From positions 1 through 34,400 of the forward strand of contig NZ_WJFC01000136.1 in assembly GCF_009725235.1 (NCBI RefSeq): DNA of 34,400 bases. The letters run 5' to 3'. Made by a program: the position numbers and the translations under genes. Positions 6,850 through 28,764 of this stretch are shown here, piece after piece (positions within the stretch are counted from its first letter, which is position 1; each line of letters opens with the position of its first letter). The notes under the pieces are model-generated. The model made no database searches. It had not been told where the DNA came from and was given only the letters and a program-made list of their open reading frames with translations. The DNA comes from Scytonema sp. UIC 10036. Its GTDB lineage: Bacteria; Cyanobacteriota; Cyanobacteriia; Cyanobacteriales; Nostocaceae.

Positions 6850-6911
6850 AAAAGTCCGGGAACTTGATTTCTTGTTTCCCCCCTTTCCAAGGGGGGATTA
6901 AGGGGGGTAAA
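6850..6911. repeat. G-run intergenic repeat, copy A
   Basis: Contains AAAGTCCGGGAAC, then CCCCCC and two GGGGGG runs ending in GGGGGGTAA. Copies are present at 18774-18830 (partial) and 26762-26820; the latter shares the longer AAAAGTCCGGGAAC start. The C-runs pair with the G-runs, so each copy can fold. The family is dispersed and non-coding. Confidence 0.7.
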
Positions 6912-6918
6912 CAATACA

Positions 6919-6962: not shown

Positions 6963-7282
6963 TGGTAGCGGGAAGTGGATTTGAACCACTGACCTTCGGG
7001 TTATGCTTACCATCTACAGCTTTCACTGCCTGGATTAACCAGTTTGTGGTCTGGACTGTCCCTTCATCCTCGCCTTTACGTTAGGATGCCTGCCTACCAG
7101 TCTCTACACCTTCCCCATCTCTAGGGCTTGGTTCGGGATTACCGCGCTAATGGCTTCCCCGAGTTTGACAGGTAATCGCACACAAGTTTCCTCGTGTACC
7201 GCCCACTGCAAGACTCACTTTTAAGCGTTTAGCTTGTCTTACGTCTCGAGCCCGACGAGCTACCAGGCTGCTCTATCCCGCG
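6963..7282 (-). tRNA. Initiator tRNA-Met (CAU) interrupted by a group I intron
   Basis: Exon 1 (7249-7282, 34 nt) starts CGCGGGATAGAGCAGCC and ends in the anticodon-stem strand GGGCT. Exon 2 (6963-7005, 43 nt) starts CATAACCCGAAGG, carries the T-arm GGTTCAAATCC, and ends CCCGCTACCA with CCA encoded. Joined they give a 77-nt tRNA. The initiator character is shown by the three G-C pairs closing the anticodon stem (GGG/CCC) and the unpaired C1-A72 at the acceptor end. The intron sits between U33 and C34, just before the anticodon. Group I introns at the initiator tRNA are known in some cyanobacteria, for example Synechocystis. The mature tRNA starts translation with formyl-Met. Confidence 0.95.
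7006..7248 (-). ncRNA. Group I self-splicing intron in the initiator tRNA
   Basis: 243 nt. Exon 1 ends in U and the intron ends in G, as group I splicing requires. On the minus strand conserved core pieces are visible: AATCCCGAACCAAGCCC (P4/Q-like), GTGTAGAGACT (R-like; plus-strand 7099-7109) and GACAGTCC (S-like; plus-strand 7053-7060). AGACT and AGTCC form P7. There is no room for a homing endonuclease and no open frame inside, unlike the Synechocystis copy that I recall encoding one. Confidence 0.9.
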
Positions 7283-11390: not shown

Positions 11391-11781
11391 AATAAGTTAT
11401 TCTTGTACTCCTAGTCTGAAGAACCCTGGTGTCTTTTAATGACAACATTTGCTTGTGACCTGTTTCCGCACGTCATACGTGCTTAACTAAAATTTTCGCT
11501 TCAGAATTATTCAAATGTCAGTTCTTTTTGGTGAAGATTAAGTAAAATTTTATGCTTAATTTCTGAGGTACGTAAGGATTTTAGAGTTAATAATATTTTG
11601 TCTTTATAGTTTTTAAATAGTGTATATACTTAGAGATAAATTTTATTTCTTTAAGATAGAACCCCGATTTAAAAATGGAATAAATAGCGTAAAAACAATG
11701 GATTTCAGGCTAAATTTTGGAAAAATCTTTGGATTTTGACGGAGAAAAGTTAGACCCCAATACTGCAAGGGCTGAGCAAAT

Positions 11782-11965
11782 TGTAGGTTGGGTTGAACAA
11801 TAGTGAAACCCAACAAATGTCTGTCAATGTTGGGTTTCGTTCCTCAAACGCCAGTAAAGGTGCGGAGGGAAACCCTCCTATGGCGCATTCGCGCCACGCA
11901 CACGGTTCAGGGCTGGCTCCCCAACCTACGTGTTTTCGCATTTTTAGGCATAACTGACAAGTATT
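11782..11965 (+). repeat. Foldback repeat (TGTAGGTTGGGT family), copy 1, interrupted
   Basis: It begins TGTAGGTTGGGTTGA and has the internal hairpin AACCCAACA / TGTTGGGTT. After the interruption it resumes with CCCAACCTACG and ends GACAAGTATT. It matches copy 2 (21458-21569) once bases 11848-11919 are removed. Confidence 0.85.
11848..11919. repeat. 72-nt two-hairpin element inside copy 1
   Basis: The inserted segment has two perfect hairpins: GGAGGG-AAA-CCCTCC (11864-11878) and TGGCGC-ATTC-GCGCCA (11881-11896). It interrupts the repeat exactly where copy 2 reads CTCAA-CCCAACC without a gap. No target duplication is clear. Confidence 0.65.
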
Positions 11966-18773: not shown

Positions 18774-18830
18774 GGACTTAAATTTCCTGTTTCCCCCCTT
18801 TATAAGGGGGGATTAAGGGGGGTAAGGGTG
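18774..18830. repeat. G-run intergenic repeat, copy B
   Basis: A CCCCCC run pairs with GGGGGG; the shared core GGGGGGATTAAGGGGGG is followed by TAAGG. Related to copies at 6850-6911 and 26762-26820. Confidence 0.7.
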
Positions 18831-19817: not shown

Positions 19818-20002
19818 TTTTTACCAGCTTTGTCTTTTAACTTTCATTATAAACAAGAGTTTGCACGAGTATATAAAAGGTTTAAACTCACAGATCCTCG
19901 AGTTGTTAAATACTAGCAGTGCTGGGGAATACTGAATGAGGCGCAAGGGTTGATATTAACCAATGCTAGCCAATAACCTAATTTAGCAACTAGGAGAACG
20001 TT

Positions 20003-21385
20003 ATGATACCAGTAACAGCAACATTTTTACTTGCCGATTGGATTGTCAAGGGATTGGCAGATGGAACTTTGGAACGAGTTGGAGGTGTGATTCGGTATGT
20101 GGCAACAAAACAGGTTGCTGCTTGGTTAAGAGATGCTCAACTAAATTCTTCTTCCTCCTCAAATAATCTCCTGAACTTAATATTGTCTGGAGCAAACGCA
20201 GTTGGTTCGGTAGCTAATGCAGCTATTACAGGCACAGGACTTTCAGATGTCAATCAAAAACTAATTGGAGTAGAACAAGCAAGTTTAAGTAATCTTGTTA
20301 TTTCAGGAGGGAACTTATTAGCAACAGCTGTTAGTGCGGCTGTGACAGGAAAAGAACTTGCTGATGTCAATCAGCGGTTGGGTGGCATTGAAAATCAGTT
20401 AGGGGCTGTAGAGCAAAGTCTACAACTTACTCAAGGGATTTTGCAAGTAACTACTGCTGCAAGTATGCTTAATCTTGGTATCTCGGTAATGGGTTTTACT
20501 GTAATAGCACAGCGTCTTAAAGAATTAGAACAACGTCTACACCAAGCAGAAGAACTTTTAAATAAAATTAATCGTAAAATAGACCTTGGCTATTATGCTA
20601 ATTTTCGTGCTGCCCTAGATTTAGCTGTTAACGCTTTTACAATGAGCAAACCAGAAAATCGCAGAAGCAGTGCTCTACAAGCTATTAACCGCTTCTTAGA
20701 AGCAGAACATATTTATACTGACTATACAGATACAGAACTAGAGCAAAAGAGCCAAATTGCTGACGAATATCTGCTATCATTATCTTTAGCTTATCTTGCT
20801 GAAGCACGTTGCTATTTAGAATTAGAAGAACATGAAACGGCGCTTCACCGCTTCCAGGAAGGGGCAAATGTTTTGCGATCGCGGATTCAAAAATACGTGG
20901 AACTTTTGTTAACCTCCAATCCATCTGCATATCTACTACCTGAGTTTAAAGGTCAAATTGATTTGCGGAGATTGACTCGAATTTATCAATGGCTCGATCC
21001 TAATTTGGATGAAAATGCTGTATTTGATATGCAACGTGAAAATCTGATTAAGCTAGTGCAAGACCCCAATCAATGGATAGACTCGCTACCAGCCGCAATT
21101 TTAACTCGTGTTGAAGTTAAAGGAGGTTGGTTCGGTCCAAATAAAGATGATTTGAAGCAAGAGGCTTACAAACGGCTGCCTCAAATTTTGGAAGTCGTAG
21201 AATCTATGGTTGAAACAAATCGCCGTTTTGAGGCATATCAGTTAGAAGTACAAGCGATCGCACAATTAGGAATAACTTTCCATGAATGGCTGAAATTAAC
21301 TCCCACTACAGAAGAAAAACCAAACAAAGCAAATTTAATGTTCATCATTCCAAACCAACCAATCTATCTGAAATTAGCCAGCTAA
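20003..21385 (+). CDS. Uncharacterised protein with a 39-residue internal duplication and TPR-like region
   Basis: 460 residues; ATG 20003 has AGGAG at 19992-19996. I do not recognise the family. Residues 1-45 form an amphipathic helix region (LADWIVKGLADG). Residues 56-91 and 95-130 repeat with an exact 39-residue spacing: NLILSGANA...ITGTGLSDVNQKLIGVE against NLVISGGNL...VTGKELADVNQRLGGIE. A third hydrophobic stretch lies at 153-170, then a coiled coil (LKELEQRLHQAEELL). Residues 200-310 are helical repeats of tetratricopeptide type (LSLAYLAEARCYLELEEHET). The design (Ala/Gly-rich hydrophobic helices plus coiled coil) is reminiscent of alpha-helical membrane-active proteins, but that is only an impression. 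Stands alone; terminator about 200 bases downstream. Confidence 0.72.
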   Translation: MIPVTATFLLADWIVKGLADGTLERVGGVIRYVATKQVAAWLRDAQLNSSSSSNNLLNLILSGANAVGSVANAAITGTGLSDVNQKLIGVEQASLSNLVISGGNLLATAVSAAVTGKELADVNQRLGGIENQLGAVEQSLQLTQGILQVTTAASMLNLGISVMGFTVIAQRLKELEQRLHQAEELLNKINRKIDLGYYANFRAALDLAVNAFTMSKPENRRSSALQAINRFLEAEHIYTDYTDTELEQKSQIADEYLLSLSLAYLAEARCYLELEEHETALHRFQEGANVLRSRIQKYVELLLTSNPSAYLLPEFKGQIDLRRLTRIYQWLDPNLDENAVFDMQRENLIKLVQDPNQWIDSLPAAILTRVEVKGGWFGPNKDDLKQEAYKRLPQILEVVESMVETNRRFEAYQLEVQAIAQLGITFHEWLKLTPTTEEKPNKANLMFIIPNQPIYLKLAS

Positions 21386-21457
21386 CGCTAAAAAGCTTGT
21401 TTCTGGAATTTGAAGACGATGCCGAACACAATCCAATAGTGCTCGGATAAGAATTTT

Positions 21458-21569
21458 TGTAGGTTGGGTAAACCTGTGGGGAAACCTAACAAATATCTGT
21501 AAATGTTGGGTTTCGTTCCTCAACCCAACCTACATATTTTCGGATTTTTCGGCTTAACCGACAAGTATT
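21458..21569 (+). repeat. Foldback repeat (TGTAGGTTGGGT family), copy 2, uninterrupted
   Basis: Ends are inverted: TGTAGGTTGGGT at the left, ACCCAACCTACA at 21521-21532. Inside is a second stem with TGTTGGGTT. A tail of 37 bases ends in GACAAGTATT. It gives the uninterrupted form against which copies 1 and 3 can be read. Confidence 0.85.
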
Positions 21570-21587
21570 GGAACACAATCGGCAAAC

Positions 21588-21617
21588 AAAAGGTGCAGTT
21601 ATTAAACTGCACCTTTT
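21588..21617 (+). terminator. Strong terminator hairpin
   Basis: AAAAGGTGCAGTT / AACTGCACCTTTT is a perfect 13-bp stem with an ATTA loop, followed by GTTTAACTTTTATTTT. It ends rightward transcription of the 460-residue gene, with the repeat in its 3' untranslated region. Confidence 0.8.
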
Positions 21618-21757
21618 GTTTAACTTTTATTTTGATGTAGCGGCAATTTAGGTAGATTCTTACCCAAACAATTATGTTATAAAAATTACTAAAATTTATA
21701 TATACTAAGTATTACCCGTATTTTAAAAACGTCTGTCTTCGCTTGTTGCTCCGTTAG

Positions 21758-24700
21758 ATGACTATGTTTTGCAATTCCCCTCCAAAACTGAACAATCAAG
21801 AACAGGTAATAACTTTTACGCCTTTGATTGTTACTCCTGACACACCACTTGCTAAGGCAATCGCTCTCATGAGTAACGCACAAGCAACGCGTATCTCAAA
21901 AGATACAGTCTCTGCTCCACATGACTTATTCGCTGATGCTCGTGCTAGTTGTGTATTGATTGTGGAAGACAATCAACTGGTAGGAATTTTTACTGAGCGA
22001 GATGTGGTGCGCTTGATTGCTAATGGACAAAAGATTGCGGGAGTTGCGATCGCTGATGTTATGACTCACTCTGTTGTTACCCTAAAACAATCGGAGTTCA
22101 CCAATCTTTCTGTAGCACTCAGCTTGTTTCAGCATTACCAGATACGTCATCTCCCCGTTCTAGACGATGATGGGGCGGTGATTGGCTCGATCGCTCAAGA
22201 AAGCTTGCTGCAATATCTGGCTGCTCGAGTAGAGAGCGAGCAAATTCTTCGGAACAAGCAAATAGAAGCGCTGCGCCAAAGCGAATATCGCTACGCAACT
22301 CTTGCATCTGCTGCACCTGTTGGTATTTTTCGTACTGATGTGAAAGGAAATTGTATGTACGTAAACGACCGATGGTGTGAGATCGCCGGACTGACATCGG
22401 TAGAAGCAATAGGAATTGGTTGGGTCAAAGCATTGCACCCCGATGACCAAGCTCTCATTTTTGAAGAATGGAACCGTTCTGTCCGAGAAAAAGAACCATT
22501 TCGTTTGGAATACCGATTTCAGCGCTCAGATGGTAAAGTCACTTGGGTGTTTGGTCAGGCTGTGGCAGAACAAGGAGCAAATGGGCAAACGACAGGTTAC
22601 ATAGGTACGATTACTGATATTAGCGATCGCAAACAGGCACAGACGGACTTACAAAACTTGGTTGAGGGAGCAGTAGCCGTCACAGGTCACGACTTTTTCC
22701 CTGCTTTAGTCAAGTATATAGCAGCTGCCTTAGACGTGGATTACGTAGTAGTTGCCAAACTAGAAGGCAATTCCCTTACTACTTATGCGCTCTGTGCAAA
22801 TGGACAAATTCAGCCCAACATTTCTTTCTCAATAGAAAATACTCCCTGTGCTCAATCGATGGCAAACGGAATGTTTTGCTGTGCTGAAGGCGTGCAACAA
22901 CTATTTTCCAGTGTTGAACTTCTAAGTGCCCTTGAAGCGGAAAGCTATCTTAGTATTGCCCTGATAGACATTCGCGGTAATGTTATTGGTAATTTAGCCA
23001 TACTAGACAAGAAACCACTCACAAATATCCCACGAATTACGGCAATACTTCAGATTTTTGCTGCCAGAGTCAGCGCTGAACTAGAACGCCAACAAGCAAT
23101 GGAAGCTTTGTGTCGGCTGAATCAAGAACTTGAACTGAGGATAGAACAACGGACTTCTGCTTTACGTGAAAGTGAAGAACGCTGGCAGTTGGCACTTCGA
23201 GGTAGCAATGACGGTATCTGGGATTGGAACTTGAAAACCAATCAAGTTTTTTTCTCAACTCAATGGAAAGATATGCGGGGTTTTACGGAAGATGAAATTG
23301 GTGACAATCTTGAAGAATGGTTGAGCCGAATTCACCCCAGCCATCGCGATCGCGTCATAAAATCCATTAAAGAGCATTTTGCTGGCAAAACTCCCTTTTT
23401 CCAAGAAGAGTACCAGGTAGAACAGAAAGATGGCTCCTATATGTGGGTATTGGATCGGGGTCAAGCGTTGTGGGATGAGGAAGGCAACGCTATTCGCATG
23501 GCTGGTTCGGAAACTGATATTACCGAACGCAAGCAAGCAGAAGAAATTTTGCAACACCAGCTAGCAGCAATTGAAGCAGTTATTGATGGCATCGCTATCT
23601 TAGAAGGCGAGACTTACACCTATTTAAACAAAGCACATTTGGAACTCTTCGGGTACGAAAGCCCTGAAGAATTAGTCGGTAGCACCTGGAAAAAATTGTA
23701 CTCTCCTGAAGAAATCAGCCGTTTTGAACAAGAGGTGTTTCCTACACTGATGCAGCAGCGCTATTGGCAAGGAGAAGCAACTGGAACTCGAAAGGATGGC
23801 AGTACCTTTGCGGAGGGATTATCTTTAACGATGACAGAAAGTGGAGACTTAATCTGTGTGTGCCGGGATATCAGCAAGCGAAAGCAAGTTGAGGAGCAAC
23901 TCCGGCGCATGAACGAGCAACTGAATCTGGCAAATGCCGAACTGCATCAAGCAACCCGCCTCAAAGATGAGTTTCTTGCTAATATGAGTCACGAACTGCG
24001 GACTCCCCTCAATGCCATTTTAGGAATGTCAGAAGGATTACAGGAAGAAGTGTTTGGTCAGCTCAACGATCGCCAGAAACACGCCATAGCCACCATTGAA
24101 CGCAGTGGAAAACACCTCTTGGAATTGATTAACGATATTCTCGATTTGTCGAAAATTGAGTCTGGCAAATTAGAGTTGCAAACTGCTCCTGTTGCCGTTA
24201 ACTATCTGTGTAAATCCAGTGTGGCATTTGTTAGGCAACAAGCAATTAAGAAGAACCTTCAACTGACTGTAGAAGTCCCAAACGACTTACCCGAAATTGT
24301 CGTCGATGAGCGGCGTATCCGCCAGGTGCTGATTAATCTGCTGAACAATGCAGTGAAGTTTACCCCATCAGGAGGCAGTGTCAAGCTGGTAGTGCAACCC
24401 AAGGAACAGCAAGAAACCATTGTTCTTTGCTTTTCAGTGATTGACACTGGAATTGGTATTCCTCAAGAGGAAATGAGTAAACTGTTCCAGCCCTTTGTAC
24501 AGATCGATAGTAGCTTGAATCGCCAGCATACTGGAACTGGGCTGGGTTTAGCCTTGGTACGCCAACTTGTAGAATTGCATGGAGGTACGGTAGCAGTCAC
24601 AAGTGAAGTGAGCCAGGGAAGTTGTTTTACAGTGTGCTTGCCGTATGTTAGATGTTTTACCTCACTCTTCACACCTACTTCGCAAGCTCTTAATTACAGC

Positions 24701-25489
24701 ACCCTGTTAGATAAGAACTCACAGGTGCTGATTGTTGAGGATTCGAGCGTCGCTGCTGAACAAATCGCCCGGTATCTGAGCGAACTGAATATGGACGCTG
24801 CTATTTATGACAAAGGTGAAGGGGCGATCGACGCAGCACTCCGCATTCAACCATCGCTCATCTTTTTGGATCTCTTATTGCCCAACCTATCTGGATGGGA
24901 AGTCCTCAAACAACTCAAAGCACACCCACAAACAAAAAATATTCCTGTCGTGGTGATTTCCTTAGTGGATGAGCGATCGCAGGCGTTATCCTTGGGGGCT
25001 GCTGAGTACCTAGTGAAACCAATGACTCGCGAAAAGTTCCGCTATACTTTAGATAAAGTTCAGCATCCAGAACAGTTCCCGGCAACTGCACTGATTATTG
25101 CTCCAAATCCCCCAATTGAAGCGACTTCCCCTCCCTTAATCTTACTGGCAGAAGACAACGAAGCGAATATAGCAACAATCTCTAGCTATCTTGGCGCTAG
25201 AGGATATCGGCTGATTGTAGCAAGAAACGGGCGAGAAGCCGTGTCCCTTGCCAAAGCACAACACCCCGATCTGATTATCATGGACATTCAAATGCCGGGA
25301 ATGGATGGGTTGGAAGCAATGCGTTTGCTTCGTGCTGATGGGAAGTTTCTTCATACCCCGATTGTTGCGCTGACTGCGTTAGCCATGCCTGGAGATCGGG
25401 AAAACTGTATATCAGCAGGAGCAAATGAATATTTGACCAAACCTGTAAAACTGAAACTTTTAGTAGAGACAATCAAACACTTAATATAG
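21758..25489 (+). CDS. Hybrid sensor histidine kinase: CBS pair-PAS-GAF-PAS-PAS-HisKA-HATPase-REC-REC
   Basis: 1243 residues, no membrane segment, so cytosolic. Order: two CBS domains (20-165, with VLIVEDNQLVGIFTERDVVR), PAS (172-297, ending DISDRKQAQ), GAF (299-450), coiled coil, PAS (465-592), PAS (600-714), HisKA (735-800) with phospho-accepting His745 in NMSHELRTPLNAILG, and HATPase (845-962) with N box NLLNNAVKF, DTGIGIP and TGTGLGLALV. Two receivers follow: Asp1038 in FLDLLLP and Asp1176 in IIMDIQMPG, with the KP lysines present. The GAF lacks the Cys-His pair of bilin-binding GAFs. CBS domains suggest adenine-nucleotide sensing. ATG 21758. Followed 11 bp later by a second kinase. Confidence 0.93.
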   Translation: MTMFCNSPPKLNNQEQVITFTPLIVTPDTPLAKAIALMSNAQATRISKDTVSAPHDLFADARASCVLIVEDNQLVGIFTERDVVRLIANGQKIAGVAIADVMTHSVVTLKQSEFTNLSVALSLFQHYQIRHLPVLDDDGAVIGSIAQESLLQYLAARVESEQILRNKQIEALRQSEYRYATLASAAPVGIFRTDVKGNCMYVNDRWCEIAGLTSVEAIGIGWVKALHPDDQALIFEEWNRSVREKEPFRLEYRFQRSDGKVTWVFGQAVAEQGANGQTTGYIGTITDISDRKQAQTDLQNLVEGAVAVTGHDFFPALVKYIAAALDVDYVVVAKLEGNSLTTYALCANGQIQPNISFSIENTPCAQSMANGMFCCAEGVQQLFSSVELLSALEAESYLSIALIDIRGNVIGNLAILDKKPLTNIPRITAILQIFAARVSAELERQQAMEALCRLNQELELRIEQRTSALRESEERWQLALRGSNDGIWDWNLKTNQVFFSTQWKDMRGFTEDEIGDNLEEWLSRIHPSHRDRVIKSIKEHFAGKTPFFQEEYQVEQKDGSYMWVLDRGQALWDEEGNAIRMAGSETDITERKQAEEILQHQLAAIEAVIDGIAILEGETYTYLNKAHLELFGYESPEELVGSTWKKLYSPEEISRFEQEVFPTLMQQRYWQGEATGTRKDGSTFAEGLSLTMTESGDLICVCRDISKRKQVEEQLRRMNEQLNLANAELHQATRLKDEFLANMSHELRTPLNAILGMSEGLQEEVFGQLNDRQKHAIATIERSGKHLLELINDILDLSKIESGKLELQTAPVAVNYLCKSSVAFVRQQAIKKNLQLTVEVPNDLPEIVVDERRIRQVLINLLNNAVKFTPSGGSVKLVVQPKEQQETIVLCFSVIDTGIGIPQEEMSKLFQPFVQIDSSLNRQHTGTGLGLALVRQLVELHGGTVAVTSEVSQGSCFTVCLPYVRCFTSLFTPTSQALNYSTLLDKNSQVLIVEDSSVAAEQIARYLSELNMDAAIYDKGEGAIDAALRIQPSLIFLDLLLPNLSGWEVLKQLKAHPQTKNIPVVVISLVDERSQALSLGAAEYLVKPMTREKFRYTLDKVQHPEQFPATALIIAPNPPIEATSPPLILLAEDNEANIATISSYLGARGYRLIVARNGREAVSLAKAQHPDLIIMDIQMPGMDGLEAMRLLRADGKFLHTPIVALTALAMPGDRENCISAGANEYLTKPVKLKLLVETIKHLI

Positions 25490-25500
25490 CGATCCTGATT

Positions 25501-26571
25501 ATGGGAACTGCACCTACAATTTTGATTATCGATGACGAACCCGATAACTTTGATGTGATTGACACATTATTAGATACCGAAGGCTATCAATTAAGCTATG
25601 TCTCTAATGGAGAACAAGCCCTTGCTCTACTAAAGGCATTTCAGCCCGATGTGATTTTATTAGATGTGATGATGCCTCAAATGAATGGCATTGAATTTTG
25701 CCAAAAATTCAAGTCTCATCCTCAATGGAAGCACATTCCAGTGATTATGGTAACCGCGTTGACTGCGAAAGAAGATTTATCCAAGTGTCTAGCATTAGGA
25801 GCGGACGACTTCATTAGCAAACCTGTTAACGGAGTAGAACTGCGTTCTCGCGTAAAATCAATGTTGCGTATCAAGAAACAATACGATACGTTGCAAGAAA
25901 CTCTGCGCTTGCGAGAAAATCTCTCTGAGATGATTGTACACGATCTGCGGAATCCACTTACTACAATCATCATGGCTACAGAAATTTTAGGAATGGCTAA
26001 ATTTTCCCCTGAACTCCTGCAAAAAAAAACCGATGCGATCGTTAGATCGGCAAGACAATTACAATCATTAATTGATAATTTGCTGCTCATGGCAAAATTA
26101 GAATCAGGCAAAATGATTCTTCAACGAACAGAAGTTGATTTGTTTGCTATTTGTTATTCAGCAATTTCCGATCTGGAAATATTTGCCGAGCAAAAAAAAC
26201 TAAAACTGGTTGTAAGCTTACCTGCAATTGGTGGTAGTGTCAGCGTAGATCTCAATTTGTTTCGTCGAGTTCTTGACAATCTACTGTTCAATGCCATTAA
26301 ATTTGCACCTTACAATAGTGAAATTATGTTGTGTGCTGATTATCCAAAACCAGGTCGAGCAAGAATTCAGGTAGCTGATTCAGGACCGGGAGTTAAAGAA
26401 GAATTGCGCCAAAAGATTTTTGAGAAATACGAAATTGGTACTCCGATGAAAGAAGTATCTCAAATTGGGTTGGGGCTAGCTTTTTGTAAAATGACTGTTG
26501 AAGCGCATGGGGGTTCCATTAAAGTGGAAAAAAACGAGCCAAAAGGGGCAATTTTTACTGTAGAGATTTGA
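25501..26571 (+). CDS. Receiver-histidine kinase (REC-HisKA-HATPase), phosphorelay partner
   Basis: 356 residues. A receiver comes first (TILIIDDEPDN, phosphorylatable Asp55 in VILLDVMMP, KP at FISKPVN), then a short coil, then HisKA with His147 in EMIVHDLRNPLTTI, and a HATPase with NLLFNAIKFAP, DSGPGV and IGLGLAFCK. It has no output DNA-binding domain and no sensory domain. Such REC-kinases are usually fed by a phosphorelay and signal onward by phosphotransfer. The 11-bp gap after the big hybrid kinase argues for one operon and for the upstream receivers or kinase acting on Asp55. No downstream DNA-binding regulator is seen next to it. Confidence 0.92.
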   Translation: MGTAPTILIIDDEPDNFDVIDTLLDTEGYQLSYVSNGEQALALLKAFQPDVILLDVMMPQMNGIEFCQKFKSHPQWKHIPVIMVTALTAKEDLSKCLALGADDFISKPVNGVELRSRVKSMLRIKKQYDTLQETLRLRENLSEMIVHDLRNPLTTIIMATEILGMAKFSPELLQKKTDAIVRSARQLQSLIDNLLLMAKLESGKMILQRTEVDLFAICYSAISDLEIFAEQKKLKLVVSLPAIGGSVSVDLNLFRRVLDNLLFNAIKFAPYNSEIMLCADYPKPGRARIQVADSGPGVKEELRQKIFEKYEIGTPMKEVSQIGLGLAFCKMTVEAHGGSIKVEKNEPKGAIFTVEI

Positions 26572-26709
26572 TCTGTCATGCAAGACGTTTTTGGATGAGT
26601 AAATTATACCAATTATATTTATTAAAATAAAACATTGAGATGCTGCTCGGTTAAGGTTAAAAATACGAAAATATGTAGGTTGGGTTGAGGAACGAAACCC
26701 AACATTTAC

Positions 26710-26851
26710 GGGAGCATCCCGTTTTTGCGTAAAGAGCAAACCCCACTAGCCCTCCCCTTACAAAAGTCCGGGAACAAGAATGATTTCCCCCCTTGCTAAG
26801 GGGGGATTAAGGGGGGTAAAAAATGTGAATTGACAAAATTGGGATGCTCCC
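26710..26851. mobile_element. 142-bp MITE-like element with 8-bp target duplication
   Basis: Both ends read GGGAGCATCCC inward: 11 identical bases, with 16 of the first 18 matching. Flanks ACATTTAC (26702-26709) and ACATTTAC (26852-26859) are identical and represent one copy of the sequence found once in repeat copy 2. No transposase is encoded, so it would depend on one elsewhere. The insertion-sequence family is not identified. Confidence 0.85.
26762..26820. repeat. G-run intergenic repeat, copy C, inside the MITE-like element
   Basis: Starts AAAAGTCCGGGAAC, shared with copy A at 6850, then a CCCCCC run and GGGGGGATTAAGGGGGG. It makes up nearly half of the element. Confidence 0.75.
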
Positions 26852-26952
26852 ACATTTACAAGCATTCTTTGAATTTTTCCACAGATTTACCCAACCTACA
26901 AAAATTGGGAATGCAGACAGGTGGGCTGCTGCAGAGCGAGTAGACAGAGCAC

Positions 26953-27015
26953 TAGAGGCTCCGCCTCTAATAAGGCATTCCCAGCCTCAGGCTGGGAACG
27001 AGGGAGGCTGGGAAC
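26953..27015. repeat. GC-rich hairpin repeats
   Basis: TAGAGGC-TCC-GCCTCTA (26953-26969) and TTCCCAGCC-TCA-GGCTGGGAA (26978-26998) are perfect hairpins, followed by a second GGAGGCTGGGAACGAG unit. The pattern is a familiar intergenic repeat of Nostocales; function unknown. Confidence 0.7.
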
Positions 27016-27069
27016 GAGAGCGGGGGGTCTGTTCACTTAGCCATCAAAACTTGTGTGGAAGGGGTGTCA

Positions 27070-28764
27070 TTAATTAATCCTAAACACTGACTCAACAGTT
27101 GACATAATAGAGTCTCGTGCATCTTTCAAAGTCTGGGCTATGGGATGCTTTGTCTGCAAAAAGACTCGCGCACAATTGCGCCCTGGCATTCCAGAAATGG
27201 AACCACCTGGATGAGTCCCCGCACCTGTCAGGAACAAGTTTTCAATTGGTGTTTTGTAGTTCGCTATTTCTGGCAAGGGACGGAAAAATACCATTTGATC
27301 TAAAGTCATATCAATGTGGTAGTAATTCCCCTTATAAGCACCCAATCTTTCTCCTAATTCAGCTGGACTTTCTACACGGCGTGCAATTATTGCGTCTTTC
27401 ACATTTGGTGCGTATTCTGCTAATTTGTCAACCACTCTATCTGCAACTTTGTTCTTGAGTTCATCTGTCCAACCCGTACCCTTTAATCCAGTACCATTTG
27501 CATTTGCAACTTGATATGGGGCAAAAAACTCAATCCATACAGTGTGCTTTCCTGGTGGTGCCATTGTCGGATCTAACACTGTTGGCACAACGACATACAT
27601 GGATGGATCGGAATCTGGAATTTCTCCCAAGGTACATTTACTATGAGCTTGCTCTACATGGGCGATAGAATCAGCAATTAATACGGAACCAATGAGATAT
27701 TCATCCCTATGTTGGTAGCGTTCAAAGCGCGGGGCTTCATTTAAAGCTAAGTCTATCTTGAGGATAGTTTCGTTGTTATTCACAATGCGACGTTCTAATC
27801 TTTCTTTTAAATTAGGATCGGCAGCATTGATATCCCTTGTATCTACTAATTGTAAAAAGACTCGCTGAGCGTCAATATTAGAGATGACTCCATGTTTAGC
27901 ACGATACTCTGTACCGTTCTCGAGTTGGACGCCGACTGCACGACCATCATCGATCAAAATCTTCTTAACTTGGCTATCTGTTAAGATAGTACCGCCCTGA
28001 CTTGTTACCAAATTGACTAGAGCTTGTACTAATGCCCCAGTACCGCCACGAGGTCTTGCCATACCGGGGTCGTGACGCATTGCCATCATAATTGCACCAA
28101 TGGCAATGGTTTTTTGTGAGGGCGGCGCACCTAATTCAGCAGCGAGTCTTGCAAGAGGTGCTTTCAAAAATTCTGAATCAAACCACTCATTGAGAAGATC
28201 TTCCGCACTGGTCATCATGTTGCGAACGAAGTCCAGCGTTTTGTTAGCAGAACCGATAACTGAAAATAAGTCTTTTATTTTTGCGATATCGTAGTTGCCT
28301 AAAATATCTAATATTGATTTTGGTGGTGCGTTAAACATGGGAATCATTGCACCAAGTGCTCGCTGCCAATACTTTGTATACTCTGCGTATTTTTTGGCAT
28401 CGCGATCGCTATAACGAGCAATTTCTGCACAAGTTTTTTCTAGGGACTTATGACCTAAGAAGTACTTCCCGTCAGGATGGGGGCAGAAAACAACTGGATC
28501 GCACTCTAAATATTCTAAACCATACTTGTGTAACTCTAATTCTTCTACAACTGGCCCCAAATGAATAAACTCGTGGTCAATAGCACACAAGTTAAATTTA
28601 AATCCTGGTGCTTCCTTCGGCAAACACTCCTCGGTTGTTGCCGCACCACCGGGAACAGAACGCTTTTCCAGTAACAAGACGCTGTAACCCGCTTTTAACA
28701 AGTAAGCAGCACAAACTAACCCATTGTGTCCTGCTCCAATAATTACAACATCATACGTTTGCAT
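27070..28764 (-). CDS. crtO: Beta-carotene ketolase CrtO
   Basis: 564 residues. CrtO adds a 4-keto group to beta-carotene, giving echinenone and, with two rounds, canthaxanthin. It is a flavoprotein related to phytoene desaturase, unlike the di-iron ketolase CrtW. The FAD-binding N-terminus reads VVIIGAGHNGLVCAAYLLKAG with LLEKRSVPGGAATTEE following. Throughout it matches the Synechocystis CrtO sequence as I remember it (CAIDHEFI.LGPV, LNEWFDSE, RPRGGTGALVQALV, VWIEFFAPY, RRVESPAELGERLG). The C-terminus carries NLFLTGAGTHPGGSISGMPG, the second dinucleotide-binding motif. Length fits. ATG at 28762-28764. Downstream are repeats, upstream a palindrome at 28810. Confidence 0.95.
   Translation of the reverse strand: MQTYDVVIIGAGHNGLVCAAYLLKAGYSVLLLEKRSVPGGAATTEECLPKEAPGFKFNLCAIDHEFIHLGPVVEELELHKYGLEYLECDPVVFCPHPDGKYFLGHKSLEKTCAEIARYSDRDAKKYAEYTKYWQRALGAMIPMFNAPPKSILDILGNYDIAKIKDLFSVIGSANKTLDFVRNMMTSAEDLLNEWFDSEFLKAPLARLAAELGAPPSQKTIAIGAIMMAMRHDPGMARPRGGTGALVQALVNLVTSQGGTILTDSQVKKILIDDGRAVGVQLENGTEYRAKHGVISNIDAQRVFLQLVDTRDINAADPNLKERLERRIVNNNETILKIDLALNEAPRFERYQHRDEYLIGSVLIADSIAHVEQAHSKCTLGEIPDSDPSMYVVVPTVLDPTMAPPGKHTVWIEFFAPYQVANANGTGLKGTGWTDELKNKVADRVVDKLAEYAPNVKDAIIARRVESPAELGERLGAYKGNYYHIDMTLDQMVFFRPLPEIANYKTPIENLFLTGAGTHPGGSISGMPGRNCARVFLQTKHPIAQTLKDARDSIMSTVESVFRIN

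Follow-up and report, generated by a model that had tools for sequence, protein, structure and literature searches.

In the 34,400-nt stretch of Scytonema sp. UIC 10036 DNA analyzed here (NZ_WJFC01000136.1, positions 1 to 34,400; the window), we identified a 142-bp element that, with a probability of roughly 93%, is best explained as a non-autonomous MITE whose ends are those of ISKra4-family insertion sequences, which was moved by their transposase and had acquired its G-run interior at an earlier stage. The basis of this reading is observed, namely the ends of the element, the target duplications, the paralogous empty sites, the insertion sequences that have the same ends together with an ISKra4 transposase, and a second composite copy. 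With it, a family of cyanobacterial MITEs obtains a concrete partner enzyme in ISKra4, and the nesting of three repeats can be put in order. The features of the window that the argument needs are as follows.

11781..11847, minus strand: second uninterrupted copy of the outer repeat, more diverged, with ACATTGAC at the site
21452..21561, minus strand: uninterrupted copy of the outer repeat, serving as a paralogous empty site in which ACATTTAC stands once
25501..26571, plus strand: neighboring gene, response regulator/histidine kinase, reading towards the element
26647..26906, plus strand: copy of the outer foldback repeat, split by the element
26702..26709, plus strand: left copy of the 8-bp target duplication, ACATTTAC, belonging to the outer repeat
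26710..26851, no strand assigned: MITE, 142 bp, with no listed ORF of at least 90 aa inside
26710..26727, plus strand: left terminal inverted repeat, in which bases 1-11 make a small terminator-like hairpin with a T-run after it
26740..26821, plus strand: G-run repeat that makes up the element core and is also scattered over other places, there lacking GGGAGCATCCC ends
26834..26851, minus strand: right terminal inverted repeat, matching the left one at 16/18 positions
26852..26859, plus strand: right copy of the 8-bp target duplication, ACATTTAC
27070..28764, minus strand: neighboring gene, FAD amine oxidoreductase family, reading towards the element

The element starts with GGGAGCATCCC (26710-26720) and finishes with GGGATGCTCCC (26841-26851), and its inverted ends pair over 18 nt with 89% complementarity, so that the 142-bp unit with inverted ends and identical flanking 8-mers described in the initial annotation is indeed present. 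Within the window the exact 11-mer GGGAGCATCCC occurs at the two element ends only, and with up to two mismatches there are 6 matches against 4.0 expected; it is the exact pair alone that is remarkable. The element was also proposed to have inserted into an older foldback repeat. When the flanks are joined, leaving out the element and one ACATTTAC, they align without a gap to 21452-21549 on the minus strand (98 bp, 87.8% identity), and likewise to 11781-11847 (67 bp, 77.6%). Because the alignment is gapless to both copies, the outer repeat is interrupted solely by the element and one 8-mer, and 21452-21549 and 11781-11847 are, by these alignments, paralogous empty sites. We conclude that the 142-bp element is a real MITE with ISKra4-type ends that was inserted after the outer repeat.

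The insertion sits between two convergent genes. Judged by its best matches the window is of cyanobacterial origin; the gene at 27070-28764 has 84% identity in Nostocales cyanobacterium HT-58-2 (G005) and 92% in G040 and G085. No orthologous empty site was found in the two closest relatives, G040 and G085, where window 21394-27063 is absent at the matching place; G085 has about 258 bp in place of it, and G040 has about 2.1 kb of different sequence in place of window 19863-27068. The segment missing in both relatives contains two histidine-kinase genes between inverted copies of the outer repeat (21452-21561 and 26647-26906). At some distance from the element, window 7036-7232 on the minus strand matches the Rfam group I intron, and ARAGORN with introns allowed predicts a putative tRNA-Ser(cga) around it at approximately 6963-7282; with introns off, it predicts none.

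The same kind of end is widespread. Scanning a sequence collection with the pattern GGGAGCATCCCNNTTTTG returned at least 109 stretches, 103 of them cyanobacterial by record title and 6 from other bacteria, and the viral scan returned 5. At 114 pattern loci with 118 matched ends, an inverted partner end was sought within 4 kb; for 35 of the 118 ends the 8-bp flanks differed by no more than one base, and for 25 of these they were identical (one element counted from both ends), and a recheck at 9 bp added 10 further perfect duplications, which leaves 83 ends, some at contig edges, that have no perfect 8- or 9-bp duplication. Counts of the exact 11-mer far exceeded those of a reversed-pattern control in G040 (28+32 vs 1), G085 (31+41 vs 1), G024 (42+42 vs 3) and G008 (42+54 vs 1), and the other six of the ten genomes gave 5-21 exact matches vs 0-3 for the reversed pattern. 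From G040, G085, G008 and G024 we took 95 stretches round ends, mostly closely spaced exact end pairs. For G040, which has 60 ends, the sample comprised ten close pairs plus 20 single ends; for G085, with 72 ends, it was ten pairs plus 20 single ends, for G008, with 96 ends, 20 stretches, and for G024, with 84 ends, 15 stretches. A partnered element was contained in 72 of the 95 stretches, and no partner end was found in the remaining 23 (for single ends, 400 bp were covered per side). The ends thus act as boundaries in other copies too, and many same-ended elements exist in cyanobacteria. Their length is not fixed near the 140 bp named in the initial annotation, the 72 elements ranging from 49 to 437 bp. 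The smallest passenger collected is a 49-bp element of G024 (L332, 301-349); its ends are exact, and its 9-bp duplication is perfect.

Among the 71 elements with flanks in these four genomes, perfect target duplications of 8 bp were found in 34, of 9 bp in 8 and of 7 bp in 1; 28 had no exact duplication of at least 6 bp, and none had one of 10-12 bp. Comparing left with right flanks of different elements puts the chance rate at 2e-4 for 8 bp and at 0 for 9 bp, so that the proposed MITE-like behavior, with 8-bp duplications recurring in other copies, is borne out, with 9 bp as an additional length. Across the 34 perfect 8-bp target sites A+T is 71%. As for the particular subtype in the window, its copies are the window element itself and, in G276, a full-length one and a truncated one. 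The subtype appears rare, because its exact 19-base left end was present in 0 of 388 class-wide genomes, a sample evidently without G276, which has that end. Of the plasmid records, 6 matched the window element, none over 80% of its length; the element at L261 gave one partial match there, and the one at L069 gave none.

Each element end consists of a small hairpin and a T-run, and of the 4 terminator-like sites in 26450-27200, a stretch for which 0.8 would be expected (sd 1.2), 3 lie within the element or overlap it. The element strand also folds better than all of 200 shuffles (z -3.64). These properties would suit a dispersed palindromic repeat that is kept for a role in the host, for instance as a terminator between convergent genes, with the flanking 8-mers being incidental. 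We give this reading hardly any weight, as the 42 of 71 copies with perfect flanking duplications contradict it and convergent gaps are not favored. The 25 elements whose duplication has no more than one mismatch and which have ORFs to their left and right fall into 16 tandem, 5 divergent and 4 convergent gaps, compared with 48 tandem, 17 divergent and 22 convergent among 87 control gaps, and thus there is no sign of a preference for convergent gaps in this set. A terminator or convergent-gene function at the level of the family was considered and rejected, there being no enrichment at convergent gaps.

If the preferred reading of a non-autonomous MITE is right, its enzyme has to come from elsewhere; it has no transposase of its own, and the initial annotation had already concluded that one would be needed in trans. 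Four insertion sequences with these ends and a perfect 8- or 9-bp duplication were found. The first, L052 (also collected as L179), from Nostoc sp. 'Peltigera membranacea cyanobiont' 210A, is a 1772-bp element with the same ends and a perfect 8-bp duplication, ACAACAAC, and its 274-aa frame matches NCBIfam NF033572 (ISKra4 family transposase) above the cut-off (E 3.3e-74). An extra 140-aa frame without a family match lies between the transposase and the right end of this element (L052, 5236-5658). The second, L178 from Scytonema hyalinum, is 1198 bp long with the ends GGGAGCATCTC/GGGATGCTCCC and a perfect 9-bp duplication, CATTGGTTG; L178 and L179 both score above the NF033572 cut-off. The third, L100 from Hormoscilla sp. 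GUM202, is an exact-ended element of 1218 bp; its 9-bp duplication, AATCAGCAG, is perfect, and its 321-aa frame passes the same cut-off (E 4.3e-74). The fourth, L087, from the same metagenome-assembled genome as L100, is 1558 bp long, and here too the ends are exact and the 9-bp duplication perfect; its transposase frames are broken and its ISKra4 score is below the cut-off. The range of duplication lengths is common to the insertion sequences and the small elements, with 8 bp in L052 and the window, 9 bp in L178, L100 and L087, and both lengths among the small elements. Because insertion sequences that contain ISKra4-family transposase sequence have the same ends, and four of these also have perfect duplications, the question of the enzyme has an answer, and ISKra4 insertion sequences probably supply the moving enzyme for the window element as well.

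The search for the ISKra4 family (NF033572) covered ten genomes and 14 control genomes, and it gave a match in 7 of the ten, above the cut-off in 2, and in 2 of the 14 controls, above the cut-off in none. At L180, a 1069-bp element with exact ends, the ISKra4 transposase is interrupted and 6/8 flanking bases are alike; at the remaining places among the 19 ISKra4 places, many of which are fragments, no convincing end pair was found. The transposase appears to be split over two frames in some of these elements. In L052 the overlapping frames at nt 59-343 and 235-1209 stand in a -1 relation, with an A6 run at 308 inside the overlap, in L178 the frames at 133-312 and 213-1169 stand in the same relation, and in L100 a 51-codon stretch (67-219) lies ahead of a 339-codon frame (165-1181). 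A homologue search returned 2548 proteins, and among the 120 listed, several are named as cyanobacterial ISKra4 family transposases.

It could also be argued that a transposase of another family with similar end recognition moves the element and that ISKra4 elements share the ends by ancestry or by chance. In keeping with that, the closest relatives have many exact ends, yet the full ISKra4 transposase is missing from them, G040 having no ISKra4 match and G085 only a fragment (model positions 308-420), and some longer spacings occur in which no ISKra4 gene was identified. Among them are L036, an end pair 422 bp apart with no identified gene, and L391, with exact ends 3280 bp apart; both are without a duplication. 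L391 was rejected as a single element, as it has host genes between its ends and no duplication, and it is probably two separate elements. However, among the distant pairs examined, all the longer elements with a perfect duplication (L052/L179, L087, L100 and L178) contain ISKra4 transposase sequence, as does L180, and we therefore consider a different enzyme improbable.

The interior of the element has a history of its own. The G-run copy noticed inside the element is present at 26784-26821, with relatives in the window at 6875-6912 (3/38 mismatches) and 18790-18827 (4/38). In G040 and G085 the window element gave 25 and 8 matches, respectively, all of the core only (element positions of about 28-119), the ends being unmatched. 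Sixty-two of 292 relatives of G040 match it with an E of 1e-9 or lower (no more than two candidates were scored in each genome), and the listed places in these relatives begin at position 28 or later and stop by 131, except for two in G276. None of 48 core loci (two of them the same place) was enclosed on both sides, at a distance of up to about 80 bp, by ends that were exact or had one mismatch, and L349 alone had two-mismatch end sites on both sides. At L351, L352, L356 and L361, the G-run core is located next to another repeat, one that has GTGTACACACAAGT-like ends, or within it, and the core seems to nest in several repeat families.

The two exceptional places in G276 are composites. One, L346, is full-length, 84% identical to the window element over 1-142, and has TCAAAAGT on both sides as a perfect 8-bp duplication; the other is truncated. 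Between the window and the full-length G276 composite, the left ends are identical at 18/18 positions and the right ends at 16/18, the cores at 71/82 with 3 gap columns, and the linkers at 7/12 on the left and 10/12 on the right with 1 gap column. A class-wide search of 388 genomes with the G276 element found the composite in G276 only. Since a second composite with its own perfect 8-bp duplication exists in another genome, the G-run repeat was, most simply, already inside the element when it jumped to the window site, having been acquired by an ancestor of the element. The nesting order first put forward, foldback repeat first and G-run inside the element, is thus kept and refined as to when the G-run entered. 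Conversely, the G-run repeat may have jumped into the element when the latter was already at the window site, as the repeat is dispersed independently, and the same place could conceivably have been used in two independent captures, given that the left linkers are alike in just 7/12 positions. We think this very unlikely in view of the homologous composite that shares the junctions at another site in another genome and the truncated composite elsewhere in that genome.

More broadly, single-linkage clustering of 123 distinct interiors gave 12 clusters, one of which, with 91 members, may merge unlike cores. The window interior groups with that of G276 alone, and 7 of the 12 clusters include a member with a perfect duplication. 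Therefore, one end set carries interiors without detectable mutual similarity. The core of a G024 element also matches 11 plasmid records from other bacteria (cyanobacteria for the most part), and its first 18 positions are covered in none of them. Counting exact ends only, this core coincides with listed ends within 60 bp at 18 of 20 merged places on three contigs in G024, and a core in G040 does so at 28 of 40 merged places, which counts against free exchange of interiors. As a tentative and somewhat doubtful extension, it can be imagined that GGGAGCATCCC ends are a general vehicle, where the ISKra4-type transposase moves any DNA between them, and separate lines have repeatedly captured different dispersed palindromic repeats, spreading and nesting them, the G-run core of the window and the G024 core being such captures. 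If true, such interior swapping would go some way towards explaining why nested palindromic repeats fill up cyanobacterial genomes.

The pathway to the present arrangement, under the reading of a MITE mobilized by ISKra4 elements, can be envisioned as follows. An ancestor of the element would already have contained the G-run repeat as its interior. A full-length insertion sequence would make the ISKra4-type DDE transposase and supply it in trans; the enzyme would recognize GGGAGCATCCC-type ends and move the DNA between two of them. The target strands would be cut 8, sometimes 9, bases apart, the element joined, and the gaps repaired to give the duplication. In the window, the insertion would have landed in ACATTTAC of the older foldback repeat between the convergent genes.

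The element belongs to an already known kind, a MITE with insertion-sequence ends, here with a composite interior. A literature search that left most subscription papers outside its coverage pointed to no publication on these ends, also among work on Nezha, ISNpu3, ISMich2 and ISKra4, and, with the same coverage, the end sequence itself turned up in one unrelated paper only. According to passages of PMC3942029, the ISKra4 family (p-MULT 4) comprises the groups ISAzba1, ISMich2 and ISKra4, and in the ISMich2 group the transposase lies in two frames in a -1 relation; a duplication length for these groups is absent from those passages. The window element resembles the family in that its ends are also found on full-length elements with an ISKra4 transposase and perfect 8-9 bp duplications, and it differs in being geneless; L052 and L178, judged by their open frames only, resemble the ISMich2 group as portrayed there, having the transposase in two overlapping -1 frames. 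Nezha is a cyanobacterial MITE (BBRC 2008, by its title as cited in PMC10969869), proposed in a passage of PMC3049150 to be mobilized by ISNpu3-like elements, and it is similar, by that description alone, in being a cyanobacterial MITE with a proposed insertion-sequence partner. The 147 complete or partial MITEs of Anabaena sp. 90, of 77-541 bp (from passages of PMC3542288), are likewise cyanobacterial and are compared here by description; the same passages report no evident similarity to the inverted repeats of that genome's insertion sequences (type II), whereas the family of the window element has partner insertion sequences.
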